From a virus, in IMG/VR virus record IMGVR_UViG_3300025087_000148, positions 1 to 42,861 of that record: a stretch of 42,861 bases of DNA. One strand, written 5' to 3'. Made by a program: the position numbers and the translations under genes. Of the stretch, positions 10,481 to 19,891 are shown piece by piece. The first letter of the stretch is position 1; each line of letters begins with the position of its first letter. The notes beneath the pieces were generated by a model. That model was not told the DNA's origin and did no database searches. It saw only the letters and a program-made list of their open reading frames with translations.

Positions 10481-10520
10481 AGAGCCCTGAATCATTACCC
10501 CCGTCAGGGTTCTCTTTTTT
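10481..10520. terminator. Intrinsic terminator between convergent genes
   Basis: AGAGCCCTGA at 10481-10490 pairs with TCAGGG..CTCT from 10504, followed on the + strand by a run of six T (10515-10520). It lies 21 bases after the stop of the giant virion protein and overlaps the stop of the convergent gene, so it should end the rightward late transcript. Confidence 0.7.
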
Positions 10521-11388
10521 CTCCATGTATTTGCATCAAATATTCAATGGGCTCCTTCACCCATCCAGACGTTATCCCGAGTCCGCAGTCGATCCATTCA
10601 ACCTCTGGATACATGACTGGGAAAAGTGCGTTTGCTATTGCCGCTACAAAAAATGGCTGAATTGTAGCAACCCCAAGTTCTTCGTCGAGCATAATAAAGT
10701 CGAGGCCCTTATAAACATCGTCAATGGGATCGCCGCGTTTCCATGAAAGCTCATTCCCGATGTTACCGATGATGTCACAGCCCATCCAATAGCAGAATCC
10801 AGTGCAGTTGAATGTTGTAACAGCTCCATCCTGACACGCGAATATCTTCACGCCGAATGCGTCCCTTACGACGCGCGCCCACGGTGACCACGGGTCAGCC
10901 GCTTCATACGCGTAGCAGTTTGTATGTTTCAAAAGTTCAATAACCTTTGGATGTGTGCGAGACCTTACCGCAAACTTGTCGCGATCCCTCGGTGGCCTCG
11001 TGAAGAAGTCGGCCACGGTTTCCGATGAATCCCCGGTCATTGTCATATCTGGAAATATTCCGTTGTCGCAAAGCCGCTCGTGCATGCGGTCCACACTTAC
11101 GATGTGAATGCCCTGGGATTGCGCCTGTGCTATTTTTTTCATGTCCCTGTGGGTTGACGCCCCATTTGCCACGACAAGGGCTGTGTGGCCACTCCACGAG
11201 CCGTACAGGGATGACAACATAGGCATCCGCCGTATGGCGGTTTTGTTCGCTTCGAGGTTGCGCGTCCACGTCTCACCCCATGTTTTCCACATTTCATTGC
11301 CATTATAAATATTTTCTTTCCATATCCGGCCACCGCGCTGACAGTAGTTTTCTGGATTTAGATGATAGTGTGCGTCGAAGTGGTGCAT
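10504..11388 (-). CDS. DUF115 / MptE-like protein (glycosyltransferase-type fold)
   Basis: A 294-residue protein when started at the ATG at 11388, which has a strong CGAGGAG eight bases upstream. The order NLEANKTAIRRMPMLSSLYG, then ALVVANGAST, then IHIVSVDRMHERLCDNGIFP, then MTMTGDSS is that of the DUF115 (6-hydroxymethylpterin diphosphokinase MptE-like) family. The usual glycine/GPSL turn is replaced by ANGAST. Family members are found in surface polysaccharide/flagellin glycosylation loci and in phages. It is the only leftward gene in the left 11.5 kb. An in-frame extension to 11487 adds a half dockerin-like peptide across a run of 12 A; see findings. Substrate cannot be named. Confidence 0.7.
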   Translation of the reverse strand: MHHFDAHYHLNPENYCQRGGRIWKENIYNGNEMWKTWGETWTRNLEANKTAIRRMPMLSSLYGSWSGHTALVVANGASTHRDMKKIAQAQSQGIHIVSVDRMHERLCDNGIFPDMTMTGDSSETVADFFTRPPRDRDKFAVRSRTHPKVIELLKHTNCYAYEAADPWSPWARVVRDAFGVKIFACQDGAVTTFNCTGFCYWMGCDIIGNIGNELSWKRGDPIDDVYKGLDFIMLDEELGVATIQPFFVAAIANALFPVMYPEVEWIDCGLGITSGWVKEPIEYLMQIHGEKREP

Positions 11389-11521
11389 TTTTTGAACTCC
11401 TCGTTTTTTTTTTTTCAATACTGCATATAATAAAACAATTACGTCTATTATGTCTAATCGATTATCTCCATTTTCATCCGCTATCATTTGTTAGCGTATC
11501 ATAATGGTTGCCCTTCCCCAT

Positions 11522-11582
11522 TACAAGCCCTCGGCGACGGGGGCGTTTTTTATTTATCAAATTTATTCCTCTTCAAAAGTTC
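11522..11582 (-). pseudogene. 3' remnant of a second copy of the 12697-12876 gene with its terminator
   Basis: These 61 bases match 12669-12729 with only two differences. Read on the minus strand they give the last ten codons ELLKRNKFDK plus stop and the downstream hairpin. Both differences are synonymous (CGG/AGG for Arg, AAG/AAA for Lys), so this is a diverged gene copy rather than a fresh duplication. The copy stops exactly where the inverted-repeat-bounded element begins (about 11583); the rest of the gene is missing. Confidence 0.7.
11527..11551. terminator. Intrinsic terminator with GCGA tetraloop (left copy)
   Basis: GCCCTCG and CGGGGGC (11527-11533 and 11538-11544) form a 7-bp stem closed by the GNRA tetraloop GCGA and followed by G and six T on the + strand. 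It is the terminator belonging to the small gene whose remnant is at 11552-11582. An almost identical copy lies at 12674-12698. Confidence 0.7.
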
Positions 11583-11584
11583 GG

Positions 11585-11602
11585 TAGTGGGTCAGTTTGA
11601 AA
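11585..11602 (+). repeat. Left terminal inverted repeat
   Basis: Eighteen bases, TAGTGGGTCAGTTTGAAA, preceded by GG. Perfect complement of 12609-12626. Left boundary of the inserted segment. Confidence 0.75.
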
Positions 11603-11649
11603 AACTTGACCGATCAAGCATATAGGATATAATAGGAATTGATTGGGGG

Positions 11650-11692
11650 CACGTGGGAGACGCCCTAACAAGTTGGTCTCCCACGTGGTTTT
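11650..11692 (+). terminator. Strong hairpin with T-run
   Basis: CACGTGGGAGAC (11650-11661) pairs perfectly over 12 bp with GTCTCCCACGTG (11676-11687), loop of 14, followed by TTTTT on the + strand. No gene precedes it within the element, so it may insulate the element from transcription entering from the left. Confidence 0.7.
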
Positions 11693-11794
11693 TCCCAGTT
11701 TTTTTATTTCATGGTGGTGCGCGCGTTTCTTGCCATTGCATGGCCAATCATTCCTTTCTTCGCATATAAAATGCGATAAATTGTCATCATATAC

Positions 11795-11823
11795 TTGACA
11801 ATGGTGGGCCTTTGTTGTATGCT
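11795..11823 (+). promoter_or_regulatory. Sigma-70-like promoter
   Basis: TTGACA at 11795-11800, 17-bp spacer, TATGCT at 11818-11823. Expected start near 11830. A bidirectional terminator begins only 27 bases downstream (11857), so the product would be a very short RNA or an attenuated transcript. Confidence 0.45.
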
Positions 11824-11856
11824 CTCATTGTCAATACCACTTAGTAAGTCGTTCAC

Positions 11857-11884
11857 AAAAACCGTTGCTCGAACAACGGTTTTT
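11857..11884. terminator. Bidirectional intrinsic terminator
   Basis: AAAAACCGTTG, loop CTCGAA, CAACGGTTTTT form a perfect stem with A and T runs on both flanks; the pairing extends to 14 bp (11854-11867 with 11874-11887). It separates the promoter at 11795 from the promoter at 11921. Confidence 0.7.
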
Positions 11885-11920
11885 GTGACAAATTTGTTGT
11901 CGTGCATTTAGAATAAATGT

Positions 11921-11948
11921 TTGACAGTGCAATATATGTCAGTACAAT
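11921..11948 (+). promoter_or_regulatory. Sigma-70 promoter of the XRE-type gene
   Basis: TTGACA at 11921-11926, 16-bp spacer, TACAAT at 11943-11948, a near-consensus promoter. It is followed within 14 bases by a ribosome site and the leader ORF at 11962. It should drive the regulator in this element constitutively unless repressed. Confidence 0.7.
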
Positions 11949-11961
11949 AAAGGAAAGAAGC

Positions 11962-12063
11962 ATGATTGCTTCAAAGAGGAGTTGTAAGGCTAAAAGCACC
12001 GAAGTCGTTGGTTTAAAAAAAACTGACGCCCCAGAGATAATGGGAGGTGTGTTAAATGAATGA
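11962..12063 (+). CDS. 33-residue leader peptide
   Basis: ATG 11962 lies just downstream of AGGAAAG and directly behind the promoter. The ORF of 33 codons is basic at its start (MIASKRSCKAKS) and ends by overlapping the start of the next gene by 8 bases (stop 12061-12063, next ATG 12056). This is the layout of a translational coupling leader. The peptide itself may have no function. Short length leaves doubt that it is a real product. Confidence 0.45.
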   Translation: MIASKRSCKAKSTEVVGLKKTDAPEIMGGVLNE

Positions 12064-12448
12064 TATGATTAACATTTCATACGCATTTGGAGAATTGTTT
12101 AAAAAAAAACGAATTGCGTTAGATTTAACGCTCAGGGATTTTTGTGACAAAAACACACTTGATCATATTTTAATAAGTAGAATAGAATGTGGAATATTGC
12201 CACCCCCACAACACGAAGAACTTGTAAGATATGCTAAATGCCTTAAAATTGAGCAAAATTCTGATGATTGGCATAGATTTTTTAATATTGCAAGAAGCTC
12301 TACAGAAGCAATAAATGATAGAAAAAACAAAGATGTTGAATGTTCTATTTTAAAGATTTTGCCAGTATCACCAGGATTTAAACCAGACGGAAGCAAGTTT
12401 ACAGAAAAACAGCTCGATGATCTTATCGACATAATTAAAAACGGCTGA
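12056..12448 (+). CDS. XRE-type helix-turn-helix regulator
   Basis: A 130-residue protein with GGGAGGTG before ATG 12056. Residues 8-75 fit a lambda-repressor/XRE fold: FGELFKKKRIALDLTLRDFC, then the recognition-helix region DHILISRIECGILPPPQH, then a helix with EELVRYAKCLKI. The sequence S.IE.G.L.PP is the usual end of an XRE domain. The C-terminal 50 residues are helical and end with KQLDDLIDIIKNG. It is the only protein gene of the inverted-repeat element and has its own promoter. It could regulate phage early genes or the host; no operator can be assigned. Confidence 0.7.
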   Translation: MNDMINISYAFGELFKKKRIALDLTLRDFCDKNTLDHILISRIECGILPPPQHEELVRYAKCLKIEQNSDDWHRFFNIARSSTEAINDRKNKDVECSILKILPVSPGFKPDGSKFTEKQLDDLIDIIKNG

Positions 12449-12478
12449 AATTGAAGGAAAAATGCCCATAACATTTAT

Positions 12479-12505
12479 GCCCTACCCTGAAATTGAAGGT
12501 AGGGC
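12479..12505 (+). terminator. Hairpin after the XRE-type gene
   Basis: GCCCTACC and GGTAGGGC pair over 8 bp around an 11-base loop, 30 bases after the stop. It is followed by TAATTTATTTC rather than a clean T-run, so it may be a weak terminator or a 3' stabilising structure. Confidence 0.5.
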
Positions 12506-12608
12506 TAATTTATTTCTAAATAGTGCAGTCTGATTTAAATCTTTCTTTTCTCGTTTAGCCATACCTAAAGTATAAGCATGACCGCTAAAGCATGTCAAGT
12601 GAGTGGCG

Positions 12609-12626
12609 TTTCAAACTGACCCACTA
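12609..12626 (-). repeat. Right terminal inverted repeat
   Basis: TTTCAAACTGACCCACTA is the exact complement of 11585-11602 and is followed by TCC, echoing the GG before the left copy. The stretch 12506-12608 holds no gene that I can support. Confidence 0.75.
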
Positions 12627-12673
12627 TCCAAGTTTTGAATTACCTTTGCTACCATGAACACCCCCAACTACAA

Positions 12674-12698
12674 GCCCTCGGCGACGGGGGCGTTTTTT
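12674..12698. terminator. Intrinsic terminator with GCGA tetraloop (right copy)
   Basis: Same 7-bp stem and GNRA loop as 11527-11551, with six T on the + strand side. On the minus strand it directly follows the stop of the 59-residue gene and is likely the end of the long early operon. Confidence 0.65.
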
Positions 12699-12876
12699 AT
12701 TTATCAAACTTATTCCGCTTCAAAAGTTCCTCGATTACGCCGCGCTCTATGCAATCCCCAAGCGTGCTTTTAATCGCCACCAGAATATCCTCGACGGGAA
12801 TCGCGTCGCCCTTGGCGTAGTCCATGTCGAGCGCGTTGTTGACGTACCGGCGCACGAATTCAGGGTAGTCGGTCAT
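12697..12876 (-). CDS. 59-residue helical protein, last gene of the early operon
   Basis: Starts at ATG 12876 with GGAG nine bases upstream and overlaps the preceding gene by 17 bases. The product is helical and amphipathic (DYPEFVRRYVNNALDMDY... ILVAIKSTLGDCIERGVIEE) and ends LLKRNKFDK. A diverged copy of its last ten codons with only synonymous changes exists at 11552-11582, showing that the sequence is under selection and is a real gene. Family unknown. Confidence 0.7.
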   Translation of the reverse strand: MTDYPEFVRRYVNNALDMDYAKGDAIPVEDILVAIKSTLGDCIERGVIEELLKRNKFDK

Positions 12877-14370: not shown

Positions 14371-14460
14371 TCAAAAAGTAGTGTACATAATCCAGTAATA
14401 AAAGACTATGGAGAGCGCTATTGCTATGATGATTCTGATTATCAAATCCCACGTTTTCAT
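14371..14460 (-). CDS. 29-residue membrane micro-protein
   Basis: ATG 14460 sits in an ATGA overlap with the preceding micro-gene and has CGGAGG upstream. The product is MKTWDLIIRII followed by a continuous hydrophobic helix to IMYTTF. Size, ribosome site and coupling argue for a real gene. It pairs with the next one to form two adjacent membrane peptides in the early operon. Confidence 0.6.
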   Translation of the reverse strand: MKTWDLIIRIIIAIALSIVFYYWIMYTTF

Positions 14461-14561
14461 ATAAACATCCTCCGCGATAAAACCATCATAATGTATGAAA
14501 ACAACAGCACTGATACAATCGCGATGATGGTCAGGTAGTGACGGGCAAGGAAATGTTTCAT
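14457..14561 (-). CDS. 34-residue membrane micro-protein
   Basis: Starts at ATG 14561 with GGAGAGC upstream, one base after the preceding gene's stop. The product has a basic N-terminus (MKHFLARHYL), one membrane helix (TIIAIVSVLLFSYIMMVLS) and RRMFI. Its end contains the ribosome site of the next micro-gene, so the two are coupled. Possible antiholin or membrane-targeted host modulator; not assignable. Confidence 0.6.
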   Translation of the reverse strand: MKHFLARHYLTIIAIVSVLLFSYIMMVLSRRMFI

Positions 14562-14562
14562 T

Positions 14563-14739
14563 TTACAGCTCTCCAATTTTGACGAAGTTATCACGATGAA
14601 TATACCATTGTTGAAGTGGGTCTCCAACATCAAACAATCCCCATTCCAGATCGCTGTCGTACTCTATGAAAACGCCTATACAAAATTCATCTTTTGACAT
14701 AGAGTATATCTCATACACGTCGCCTTTTTTGAGCGTCAT
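14563..14739 (-). CDS. 58-residue small acidic protein (SH3-like)
   Basis: The start is ATG 14739, with GAGAGGAG upstream, not the longer open frame to 14820 whose first residues are only the translation of a CRISPR repeat. The product MTLKKGDVYEIYS... EYDSDLEWGLFD... WYIHRDNFVKIGEL is a small beta-rich, SH3-like sequence. It overlaps the upstream gene by ATGA. Function unknown. Confidence 0.65.
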   Translation of the reverse strand: MTLKKGDVYEIYSMSKDEFCIGVFIEYDSDLEWGLFDVGDPLQQWYIHRDNFVKIGEL

Positions 14740-14903
14740 TTCGGGAACTCCTCTCGGCACTCGGCGCAGCGTCGCCCCTCGTACAGGGGCGTGGATTGAA
14801 ACTTGCATGACCCCTGCCATCCTTTTATTTCACCAATAATAATTAGCGTTAGCGACACCCCACAAATTATTAATATGATACAAACAAATGTGTCTGTACT
14901 CAT
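14736..14903 (-). CDS. 55-residue membrane protein whose gene contains the CRISPR repeat
   Basis: ATG 14903 follows GAGGGAT and the preceding stop by 24 bases. The product has one N-terminal membrane helix (FVCIILIICGVSLTLIIIG), then KGWQGSCKFQSTPLYEGRR, then CAECREEFPK. Residues about 34-44 are encoded by the antisense strand of the solitary type I-C repeat (14771-14802). The last residues supply a CAEC half-site typical of small zinc proteins and the stop overlaps the next start (ATGA). The gene may be real with the repeat inserted, or the ORF may be fortuitous. Confidence 0.5.
   Translation of the reverse strand: MSTDTFVCIILIICGVSLTLIIIGEIKGWQGSCKFQSTPLYEGRRCAECREEFPK
14771..14802 (+). 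CRISPR. Solitary type I-C-like CRISPR repeat
   Basis: Thirty-two bases with every hallmark of a type I-C (Cas5d-processed) repeat: start GTCGCCCC, a perfect 7-bp stem CGCCCCT/AGGGGCG around loop CGTAC, and the 3' end GGGGCGTGGATTGAAAC. The + strand is the crRNA-sense orientation; the early operon is transcribed the other way. No second repeat is found at spacer distance on either side and there are no cas genes. Read on the minus strand it gives the SIHAPVRGAT and FQSTP peptides that are known artefacts of I-C arrays. See findings for possible roles. Confidence 0.85.
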
Positions 14904-14927
14904 GATTACTTATCCCTCGCCGCCTCC

Positions 14928-15125
14928 TCAAATCCGCGCTTCGATCATCGCGTCGGCGTAGATATACGCGTCCTGGCATTTTTCTTCTGGGGTACACTTT
15001 GAATCTGGATATGCCGTTAGTATCCCCGTGAGCGCGGCCATTGCGAACTGGTCGCGCAACGTTGGCTGTGGCAATTTTTCAATACAGATTTCTTTGTTGC
15101 AATGTGGACACGTTGATATTATCAT
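14928..15125 (-). CDS. Small phage protein with zinc-ribbon start
   Basis: 65 residues behind GGGGAGAAG. The N-terminus MIISTCPHCNKEICIEK is a C-x2-C half ribbon. The body LRDQFAMAALTGILTAYPDS ... DAYIYADAMIEARI is a motif common in uncharacterised phage early proteins (LRD.FA..AL ... YA.ADAM...R). Function unknown. Confidence 0.65.
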   Translation of the reverse strand: MIISTCPHCNKEICIEKLPQPTLRDQFAMAALTGILTAYPDSKCTPEEKCQDAYIYADAMIEARI

Positions 15126-15422
15126 TCACTTCTCCCCTTTCCATTTGCGCCCGTATGGGCATGTATGCCACTTGTTAAAGATACATGGCCCCGGTAATCC
15201 TGCTAAACATTCATTAATCGGATTCATCCAATGACACGGAGCAATATATTTATGTTTCTTTTCCGGCAAATCATCCTGCTGATTCAGGAAGTCGCGCAGC
15301 GCGGCGGCTTGTCGAATAGGCAATGTAATCGTGCCTCGTATTGTTGATATAAGCAGGGGCCGTTTAACCTTATCGTTATATTCAATTGACAATCCTTTCA
15401 GCCGCTTCGTTTTCGCCGCCAT
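15126..15422 (-). CDS. Unknown early protein, about 98 residues
   Basis: ATG 15422 overlaps the upstream stop as TGATG; a GTG directly before it (15425) is an alternative start. GGAGG lies ten bases upstream. The N-terminus is very basic (AAKTKRLKGLSIEYNDKVKR). The C-terminus has CHWMNPINECLAGLPGPCIF and WHTCPYGRKW, four cysteines and two histidines likely to bind metal. No family recognised. Confidence 0.6.
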   Translation of the reverse strand: MAAKTKRLKGLSIEYNDKVKRPLLISTIRGTITLPIRQAAALRDFLNQQDDLPEKKHKYIAPCHWMNPINECLAGLPGPCIFNKWHTCPYGRKWKGEK

Positions 15423-15667: not shown

Positions 15668-15951
15668 GTCACCGCCTCGTCGTTTTCGATTGGCTCATAC
15701 GTCTTTTCAAAAATGTCCGGCTTGCACGGATAAAGCTCGCCGTTCACGCCACGGATGATCCAGTCTCCGATCTGCGCCGTCATAATTCCTTCAAGTGTTT
15801 CGATTTCCACAATGCGTTTGTGTTGGACATAAACCACTTTACACCCATCCACGGACCTTATGTGTTCCGGGTTCGGATGTAGCGCGTCAAATGTGGAATC
15901 CATAATCTGTACAGCCTCAATCACTACTGGTAACTTGCGATACTTTTTCAT
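15664..15951 (-). CDS. PGDYG-like phage protein
   Basis: 95 residues, GAGGGGGG before ATG 15951, TAATG overlap with the upstream enzyme. The start KKYRKLPVVIEAVQIM and the centre EIETLEGIMTAQIGDWIIRGVNGELYPCKPDIFEKTYE match the widespread phage family around PGDYG (PF14083): a conserved I.GDWII.G..GE.YP.KP.IF..TY. The domain is found in many phage early operons; its biochemical role is unknown. Confidence 0.75.
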   Translation of the reverse strand: MKKYRKLPVVIEAVQIMDSTFDALHPNPEHIRSVDGCKVVYVQHKRIVEIETLEGIMTAQIGDWIIRGVNGELYPCKPDIFEKTYEPIENDEAVT

Positions 15952-16736
15952 TATTCTGTACCCCCCTCGTTTTTCCGCGCCGCGTCAACTGGAATTATCT
16001 TCCGCCCGTGAATATAATTGTCGTACATAATTTCAAGCTCATCGTTTGTAAAATGTGAATGTTCTGGATTTCTGTTTTGCCACTTAAAAAAGAATCGTTT
16101 CATTGCGGCATAATGTTTCGGCCATCTATTTATATTCCTTCCCACTTGTTTATCGCTCCCATAAATAAATGGACACATAATACAACCAATACGATGAAAA
16201 CCCTCATCATACAATGAGGGATATTCGAGTTTATTTTTATGTATATAAATCCATATTTCCTCTGTGGGCCAATCAAATATAGGATAATAACTTTGTTTTA
16301 TAATCGCGCCGCGTTTTTTTCGATTAAATGATTCTTCGGCGCGAACGCCACAAAGTGTAGGAATGTGCGGCGCGACATTTTTCTTTTGGGTATCACAGCA
16401 CCATCTTGCAAACATAAATGGCTGAATCCCTTTCTTTTTCCACATCTGAAAGAACGGCGGCGCGTGAAGTATTTCAACTTCTGGATATTTCTCTTTAATA
16501 AATCGCACAAGTTCAGGCGGGTCAATCGTGGTGTTGACGTAATGAACGTGATGCGGCAACCCTGATTTTTTAACGATGTCATAAAGCACGATTGAATCCT
16601 TGCCGCCGCTAAATGCCACTTCCCAATATCCCTGTTTTTCTGGAAAGTGTTCGATCATGAATTCAATGGATTTCGGCACAAGATAAGCAAGGCTGAATTC
16701 ATCGAATACGACTTGTCCAATGTGCTTATCTTTCAA
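15951..16736 (-). CDS. PAPS-reductase / adenine nucleotide alpha-hydrolase family enzyme
   Basis: 261 residues. The start is TTG 16736, with GAGGA six bases upstream and no ATG nearby. EVAFSGGKDSIVLYDIV (about residues 40-56) is the PP-loop SGGKDS. RWCCDTQKK (about 111) and GVRAEES (about 130) follow, then IFDWPTEEIWIYI, as in the PAPS reductase family (PF01507) and its DndC-like branch. A pair of cysteines CIMC sits near residue 188. Members use ATP to activate sulfate/sulfur or carboxyl groups. With no sulfate-assimilation neighbours here, a nucleic-acid modification or host-metabolism role is possible, but no Dnd partner is seen. Confidence 0.8.
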   Translation of the reverse strand: MKDKHIGQVVFDEFSLAYLVPKSIEFMIEHFPEKQGYWEVAFSGGKDSIVLYDIVKKSGLPHHVHYVNTTIDPPELVRFIKEKYPEVEILHAPPFFQMWKKKGIQPFMFARWCCDTQKKNVAPHIPTLCGVRAEESFNRKKRGAIIKQSYYPIFDWPTEEIWIYIHKNKLEYPSLYDEGFHRIGCIMCPFIYGSDKQVGRNINRWPKHYAAMKRFFFKWQNRNPEHSHFTNDELEIMYDNYIHGRKIIPVDAARKNEGGTE

Positions 16737-17425: not shown

Positions 17426-17691
17426 GGCAACTCATCAAAAGCCGATGTAATGTTCATCATTCCCATGATGCAATATTCTGGATCGAGGCCGTAAACACCA
17501 CCTTGTAAAACGTATGTTACGATTGCTGTTTTCATCCGACCAGTTAGCCCGTTGTCATCGTCTATTTCTACGAGTTCAAGGATGTCTCCCTCTTGAAAAT
17601 CACGGTCGTTCTTTCGAAGTTCGAAGTTCTTTTTTCGCACTCCCACGCTTTTAAAATACTCTGTCTTTGTTTTCAGCCTGTGTCGTTTCAT
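17422..17691 (-). CDS. DUF3850 (ASCH/PUA-like) protein
   Basis: 89 residues. The order HRLKTKTEYFKSVGVRKKNF, ELRKNDRDFQEGDILELVEI and YCIMGM is that of DUF3850, an ASCH/PUA-superfamily domain frequent in phages and presumed to bind RNA or modified bases. It is coupled by ATGA to both neighbours. The domain fills the whole protein, so it acts as a stand-alone unit. Confidence 0.75.
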   Translation of the reverse strand: MKRHRLKTKTEYFKSVGVRKKNFELRKNDRDFQEGDILELVEIDDDNGLTGRMKTAIVTYVLQGGVYGLDPEYCIMGMMNITSAFDELP

Positions 17692-18158
17692 GGTTTCACC
17701 AGCCCCGGCAGGTATTTCGTTTTCCCATTAATGCGCTTGGCCGTGAGAACCTGGCCGCGCTGACGCTCTGTCGAATACGAAACGTGTGTCCACTGGCCGA
17801 ACTCCAGAATGAGCTGGTCGAATGGGAGCCTCATTGCAATGATGCGCTGGCACACGGCAAACGGGGGCAAGCCTAACACCGTTATATCAGCGGCCTGCCC
17901 GGTAAGGTGCTGGCTCGATTTCGCGCCGCCCACGACCTTGTTACACGGCCCAGATCGATAGCCAGAGTTGATATGTATCGGCGTGGCGACGGCGTATGCT
18001 TTGGCCCGGAATGGTTCCAGTATGTTGTCGCACAGTGCTTTCAAGTTCACGGCCTGATTGCTGTCGAGCTTGACAGTGTTCTTTATCCCGAGCCGCGCCG
18101 CCGTGTAGGAAAAACACATTTCTTCCAATGTAAAATGCGGGGTTAGTTGCGTTGCCAT
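17688..18158 (-). CDS. Peptidase M15-type endolysin
   Basis: 156 residues from ATG 18158 (GGAGG upstream; an earlier in-frame start at 18188 is inside the previous gene). INSGYRSGPCNKVVGG, SSQHLTGQAADI and WTHVSY give the zinc ligands and catalytic residues of the M15A family (His-x6-Asp and a later His). It should cleave peptide bonds in the peptidoglycan stem and act as the lysis enzyme. It has no signal peptide, so it needs a holin. The gene is unusual in lying in the leftward early operon, away from the holin-like genes at 1212 and 2233. Confidence 0.85.
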   Translation of the reverse strand: MATQLTPHFTLEEMCFSYTAARLGIKNTVKLDSNQAVNLKALCDNILEPFRAKAYAVATPIHINSGYRSGPCNKVVGGAKSSQHLTGQAADITVLGLPPFAVCQRIIAMRLPFDQLILEFGQWTHVSYSTERQRGQVLTAKRINGKTKYLPGLVKP

Positions 18159-18159
18159 C

Positions 18160-18741
18160 TCAATTTTCCTCCAAAATATGTTCGCCATTAATGAGTCGTT
18201 TCAGACATTCTATTTGAGCGTCCTCTGCGGCGGCCCATGCGGCGGCCCATGCGGCGGCCCTTGCGGCGGCCCATGCGGCGGCCCTTGCGGCGGCCCCTGC
18301 GGCGGCCCCTGCGGCGGCCCTTGCGGCGGCCCTTGCGGCGGCCCCTGCGGCGTCCCCTGCGGCGGCCCCTGCGGCGGCCCTTGCGGCGGCCCCTGCGGCG
18401 TCCCCTGCGGCGGCCCTTGCGGCTGACAAATCATTTTCGTGGAGATTTCCATTAGCATATTCCTCTGCGAACCACAGCACATCCATGGTCCGCGAGTCGA
18501 TATTATTTATATCTTGTAGGGCAATGGCTTCCCTGGCGCACCAGATAGCAAAATAGCGTAGCTGTTTATCCGGGAGCATTTTTGATGCAACCCATATTCT
18601 ATCTTTTTCCGGGATCGTTTCCATTACCAAAATATCAGATAGGGTATGGCTCCACGGGGTTCTAATGTATCTGCCGATATAGCACGCGCCTTGTGAAACA
18701 AGATAATCTGATGTTACTATCGGGTCATATTTCGTTGCCAT
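18160..18741 (-). CDS. Alanine-rich tetrapeptide-repeat protein (Imm-5-like)
   Basis: 193 residues from ATG 18741. Residues 1-100 are ordinary (KQLRYFAIWCAREAIAL ... MDVLWFAEEYANG). From about residue 105 to 170 there are 16 tandem tetrapeptides [A/D]AA[R/G/W/E], encoded by a 12-bp DNA repeat. The last 20 residues (IECLKRLINGEHILEEN) are again normal. The N-terminal half resembles phage proteins annotated as Imm-5-like, which commonly have such Ala/Arg/Trp helices. The repeat is probably one long helix with a stripe of changing residues. Function unknown. Confidence 0.75.
   Translation of the reverse strand: MATKYDPIVTSDYLVSQGACYIGRYIRTPWSHTLSDILVMETIPEKDRIWVASKMLPDKQLRYFAIWCAREAIALQDINNIDSRTMDVLWFAEEYANGNLHENDLSAARAAAGDAAGAAARAAAGAAAGDAAGAAARAAARAAAGAAAGAAARAAAWAAARAAAWAAAWAAAEDAQIECLKRLINGEHILEEN
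18226..18423. repeat. 12-bp tandem repeat, about 16 units, with one variable base per unit
   Basis: The unit on the + strand is GCGGCGGCCCNT. N is A, T or C, giving Trp, Arg or Gly codons (TGG, AGG, GGG) in the minus-strand gene. Two units carry GCGTCC instead, giving Asp. All other positions are nearly invariant. Confidence 0.85.
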
Positions 18742-19710: not shown

Positions 19711-19801
19711 AACACGCTCACCGCCGATCTTTGGTCTGTCCTGCCGGTCGGGATTAAGTAGTGGGCGCAAGGCATCGTCGTTACCTCGTTTCGTTTACTA
19801 C

Positions 19802-19891
19802 AGCGTGGGCCGGATTCGAACCGGCGTTCTGGTCACCATCTACCCGTTAGGGCGATTCGGCTCCCCGTCCTTCCAATTAAACTACCACGCT
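19802..19891 (-). tRNA. tRNA-like gene with non-canonical anticodon region
   Basis: On the minus strand a 7-bp acceptor (AGCGTGG/CCACGCT) joins a normal D-arm (GTTTAATTGGAAGGAC) and a perfect T-arm (GCCGG TTCGAAT CCGGC). The segment between D-arm and T-arm is 41 bases and does not give a clean 5-bp anticodon stem with U33; only three G-C pairs form around AGCCGAATCG. GAA or CGA could be the anticodon by position, with a 23-base variable arm. No CCA is encoded. Either a diverged phage tRNA (class II-like) or a tRNA mimic. Confidence 0.55.

Follow-up and report, generated by a model that had tools for sequence, protein, structure and literature searches.

Phages are known to carry solitary repeat units (SRUs) that act as RNA anti-CRISPRs (Racrs), and one of type I-C, RacrIC1 from a Bifidobacterium pseudocatenulatum prophage, has been validated; it is in sense orientation, is co-transcribed and lies 11 nt downstream of acrIC5 (PMC10651486). 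The SRUFinder criteria used to find such units call for a match to a known repeat, at no less than 90% identity, along 90% or more of its length, for the lack of any other repeat, whole or partial, within 100 bp and for a position outside predicted open reading frames (ORFs), those predicted at 80% confidence or more being masked (PMC10651486). Viral CRISPR mini-arrays, a related kind of element, hold one or two spacers between repeats (PMC11656645). Here we analyse a lone type I-C repeat in a viral DNA stretch of 42,861 nucleotides (IMG/VR record IMGVR_UViG_3300025087_000148, the whole of which we call the window), for which a sequence-only reading had invoked the Racr class, a class that is indeed real.

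The element is the 32-mer GTCGCCCCTCGTACAGGGGCGTGGATTGAAAC at positions 14771-14802 of the + strand, its CRISPR RNA (crRNA)-sense strand. It occurs once in the window when the 5-base loop is left free and up to three mismatches are allowed, and the same search gave no match in 100 dinucleotide shuffles. The stem CGCCCCT/AGGGGCG, closing the loop CGTAC at 14773-14791 (+), and the 3' tail GGATTGAAAC are both intact, just as the sequence-only reading had described them, and folding of the isolated repeat is predicted to give the I-C hairpin, with 7 bp and an energy of -12.9 kcal/mol. A low-stringency scan of 14600-15000 found no second, partial or degenerate repeat, and the flanks hold no trace of a leader, a spacer or a second repeat. 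No cas gene was recognised among the larger window proteins and the neighbouring small ones, the subset of ORFs scanned with PHROGs, Pfam and PADLOC, so that the earlier claim of a repeat without a partner or cas genes nearby was borne out in what was scanned. The surroundings are a series of leftward genes, many of them overlapping, that occupies about 11.5-30 kb and whose status as an early operon is predicted from the gene layout. Both flanks of the repeat carry on this one series with overlapping starts and stops, and on this ground an assembly chimera at the repeat was rejected.

To find bacterial owners of the repeat we scanned one genome per species, 84,980 species in all, with two loop positions degenerate, and eight stretches matched. 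In JADHUV010000020.1, from the metagenome-assembled genome (MAG) 'Nitrospira sp. isolate BS150m-G55' (L097/L102), the exact 32-mer occurs three times at a spacing of 66-67 nt, preceded by an AT-rich leader, and the genes ahead of the array, cas3, cas5, cas8c, cas7, cas4, cas1 and cas2, form a complete type I-C operon (Cas5, Cas8c, Cas7 and Cas1 being named by type I-C-specific models, and Cas3, Cas4 and Cas2 by general Cas models). A one-base variant, with GCAC for GTAC in the loop, is present in four other genomes in a sample of 396 from the phylum of this MAG, and variants with GTGC and GTGT loops occur in other scanned taxa (Deltaproteobacteria, Prevotellaceae). Because the same 32 bases form the array repeat beside a complete I-C cas operon, and because of these near variants, we regard a chance origin of the window 32-mer as excluded. 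The search of bacterial genomes that the sequence-only reading had proposed has hence returned an exact counterpart, and its identification of a real type I-C repeat holds. While the MAG has an array with leader, spacers and the cas3-5-8c-7-4-1-2 genes, the phage has one identical repeat only.

Placed beside the described systems, the window resembles RacrIC1 (PMC10651486) in having a single type I-C repeat of host-type sequence and hairpin in a phage genome without cas genes. It is identical at 32 of 32 positions to an array repeat, no other repeat, whole or partial, lies within 100 bp of it, and as far as sequence goes its assignment to the SRU class, which includes the Racrs, is sound. With the viral mini-arrays (PMC11656645) it shares a host-like repeat in a virus lacking cas genes; unlike them it has no second repeat, and thus no pair of repeats with a spacer between. 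It differs from RacrIC1, too, in that its crRNA-sense strand opposes the operon and in that the site, known here from its sequence alone, probably lies inside an ORF.

Solitary I-C-like repeats also occur in many other, unrelated viral contigs. An exact IMG/VR scan for GGGGCGTGGATTGAAAC gave 89 stretches, which reduced to about 60 non-redundant solitary sites, 49 of them with the 5' stem arm; the few sites without any stem are likely due to chance. Their loops vary (GAAA and TTCG included), and most fold the hairpin in the sense context. Judged by flanking ORFs, 34 of 55 comparable sites, the window excluded, are sense, 13 antisense and 8 mixed, counts that are approximate because ORFs were called crudely, as the longest ones that do not overlap. 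The window site belongs to the minority orientation, and its sense hairpin probability of 0.2 is among the lowest of the class. At three sites (L029, L078 and L086) the loop is shortened to a GAAA or TTCG tetraloop while the stem and the GGATTGAAAC tail are kept, which suggests selection for the RNA hairpin. A Shine-Dalgarno sequence and start codon follow the repeat by 8-60 nt at 16 of 60 sites (L001, L002, L004, L016, L018, L021, L034, L047, L053, L070, L071, L073, L077, L080, L085 and L086) versus 13% of random same-strand positions, and where such a repeat sits in the 5' leader of a phage mRNA, Cas5d cleavage could become coupled to the gene that follows. One of these sites, L080 (reverse strand, about 1750-1665), carries a one-mismatch relative of the window repeat in sense orientation; this relative lies in a micro-ORF of 28 codons (MDNLDESPLVQGRGLKHAEADDQGDCLL) that has a good Shine-Dalgarno sequence.

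The reading that we favour, at a probability of about 0.45, is that the repeat is a Racr-like decoy made from a transcript antisense to the operon. The + strand of the repeat would be transcribed during infection in a host owning this repeat; once Cas5d of the host had recognised the hairpin and cleaved the RNA at the hairpin's 3' base, the RNA with the handle TGGATTGAAAC would hold Cas5d, Cas7 and Cas8c in unproductive complexes, leaving fewer real guides. Because it is identical in sequence to a real I-C repeat, the window repeat, if transcribed, should be a competent Cas5d substrate. Supporting this decoy are the exact and solitary state of the repeat, the existence of a complete I-C system with the same repeat, the many viral contigs with solitary I-C-like repeats (the hairpin is kept in sense context at most of these sites, and 13 of 55 comparable ones are likewise antisense), the RacrIC1 precedent and a promoter match of 9 of 12 bases on the right strand.

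Several observations weigh against such a decoy. The crRNA-sense strand opposes the operon, the repeat being on the + strand and the genes leftward, as the sequence-only reading had also noted. No strong + strand promoter lies near the repeat: the best and sole + strand match upstream, a mediocre sigma-70-like TTGACG-18-TACCAT at 14579-14608, about 160 bases away, ranks among the best 0.1% of positions yet falls below the window's own strong sites. No terminator-like site was found in 14500-15200, and read-through from late genes is an unlikely source of + strand RNA since it should be halted at two rightward terminator-like sites, at 11527 and 12674. Longer sense RNAs favour a competing fold, in which CATGACCCCTG (14806-14816, +) pairs with the repeat 3' arm and out-competes the hairpin; the predicted hairpin probability is 0.98 for RNA 14765-14805 versus 0.02 for 14771-14820, and 0.02-0.2 for longer RNAs, although the hairpin could form first through co-transcriptional folding. 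No known anti-CRISPR (acr) gene was recognised near the repeat in the PHROGs, Pfam and PADLOC scans, in which no dedicated Acr library was used. Finally, the repeat lies probably, though not certainly, inside a gene, in antisense.

That gene would be a plausible small membrane-protein ORF of 55 amino acids (aa) on the - strand (14736-14903), with an ATG start and one hydrophobic span, which fits the gap between a 65-aa gene (14928-15125, -), matching PHROG families of unknown function and transcription regulation, and a 58-aa gene (14563-14739, -) with its own Shine-Dalgarno sequence (GAGAGGAG). The stop of the 55-aa ORF runs into the next gene's start, and the same pattern is seen in the neighbouring 34-aa and 29-aa membrane ORFs, overlapping micro-ORFs that adjoin the repeat region at 14371-14561 (-). 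The codon score of the 55-aa ORF, 0.09 per codon, is intermediate, the means of the neighbouring genes being 0.28 in frame and -0.26 and -0.45 off frame, with -0.17 for the ten codons that overlie the repeat; no relatives of the ORF turned up in the searches made. In terms of the SRU criterion on ORFs, the repeat is thus spanned, on the other strand, by an ORF of intermediate coding score. The repeat is likewise covered by an 85-aa ORF at 14820-14563, but we took this for the 58-aa gene extended upstream and rejected it, since the 58-aa gene has its own better Shine-Dalgarno sequence.

Pairing with the repeat as strong as that of CATGACCCCTG was found in 2% of shuffles but in 18% of real 60-nt window pieces (129 of 710), and we do not claim CATGACCCCTG as a selected switch or designed anti-repeat. 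As to the rightward terminator-like hairpins, one is carried by each of two 67-nt direct repeats, 94% identical, that flank a 1.1-kb cassette (11516-12729); within the cassette are strong promoter matches that point rightward and an XRE/repressor-like gene (12056-12448) that runs rightward among leftward neighbours.

The main rival to the decoy is a recent and inert footprint: a single repeat unit, acquired from a host array through recombination or the remnant of a mini-array since lost, with no current function. We hold this to be a tentative but serious possibility: a recent capture would leave an exact copy, the antisense and probably intragenic position, the weak promoter and the lack of a terminator all suit it, and, as none of the three antisense frames meets a stop in the repeat, an insertion would be tolerated and need not break the ORF. 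Nevertheless, the flanks bear none of the leader, spacer or second repeat that an array might have left behind, and a purely accidental process would not easily place solitary I-C repeats in so many unrelated viral contigs. A role at the DNA level, with the repeat serving as short homology or as a Cas1-Cas2 target for exchange between the phage and CRISPR arrays of the host, appears very unlikely; the exact identity would favour recombination, but for homologous recombination 32 bp is a short stretch, the repeat has no leader next to it and no integrase was found among the proteins scanned.

With the repeat present in it as the reverse complement, the operon mRNA itself might act as an antisense RNA: by pairing with the repeats of the host pre-crRNA it would either keep Cas5d from processing them or lay the duplex open to RNase III. 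This is energetically possible but improbable in our view, even though transcription is expected from the - strand. Predicted energies are -69.2 kcal/mol for the full duplex and -12.9 and -14.7 kcal/mol for the separate hairpins, whose complementary single-stranded tails of 10-11 nt would provide a toehold and whose loops are complementary as well; any reverse complement, however, yields such energies. Moreover, pairing would be impeded by translation of the ORF, 34 of the 55 comparable sites are sense rather than antisense, and the literature searched offers no precedent. The more specific version, in which the antisense repeat sits within a translated small gene and stops processing by Cas5d through annealing to the pre-crRNA repeats, is slightly more improbable again; if true, it would make an RNA anti-CRISPR that pairs with crRNA precursors and does not mimic the repeat.

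The sequence-only reading had further expected the host to own an identical or nearly identical repeat. A bacterium with the identical repeat and a complete I-C system does exist, while its link to this phage was not supported: none of 96 spacers from arrays of this repeat family beats the reversed-window control, and the 396 genomes of the candidate phylum hold no portal homologue, a result that says little about the host. The phage looks like a podovirus, to judge by a head-tail adaptor (phrog_332) and an internal virion protein (phrog_511). Among the GenBank matches listed, no portal relative exceeds about 25% identity, and the best-ranked terminase match (27.8% identical) is a Caudoviricetes record from Manatee Spring. 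No close relatives were confirmed in IMG/VR scans with early and structural proteins, nor was a similar repeat seen in the phage GenBank collection at blastn sensitivity. Elsewhere in the window, all on the - strand, are phage-borne MptE-like (10504-11487), PAPS-reductase (15951-16736) and M15 peptidase (17688-18188) domains and a tRNA gene with an odd anticodon loop (19801-19891).

For a phage without close relatives the repeat supplies a specific host hypothesis, namely Nitrospirota with I-C systems, in which the bacterium that owns the same repeat would be a candidate host. The most interesting general point is that masking of ORFs would hide such sites from the published SRU search, since a site like this one is missed if its ORF is called. 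If the repeat is inert, it cautions against taking every lone repeat for a Racr. If it is active, candidates for RNA anti-CRISPRs would also hide antisense inside genes, and their number may have been underestimated.
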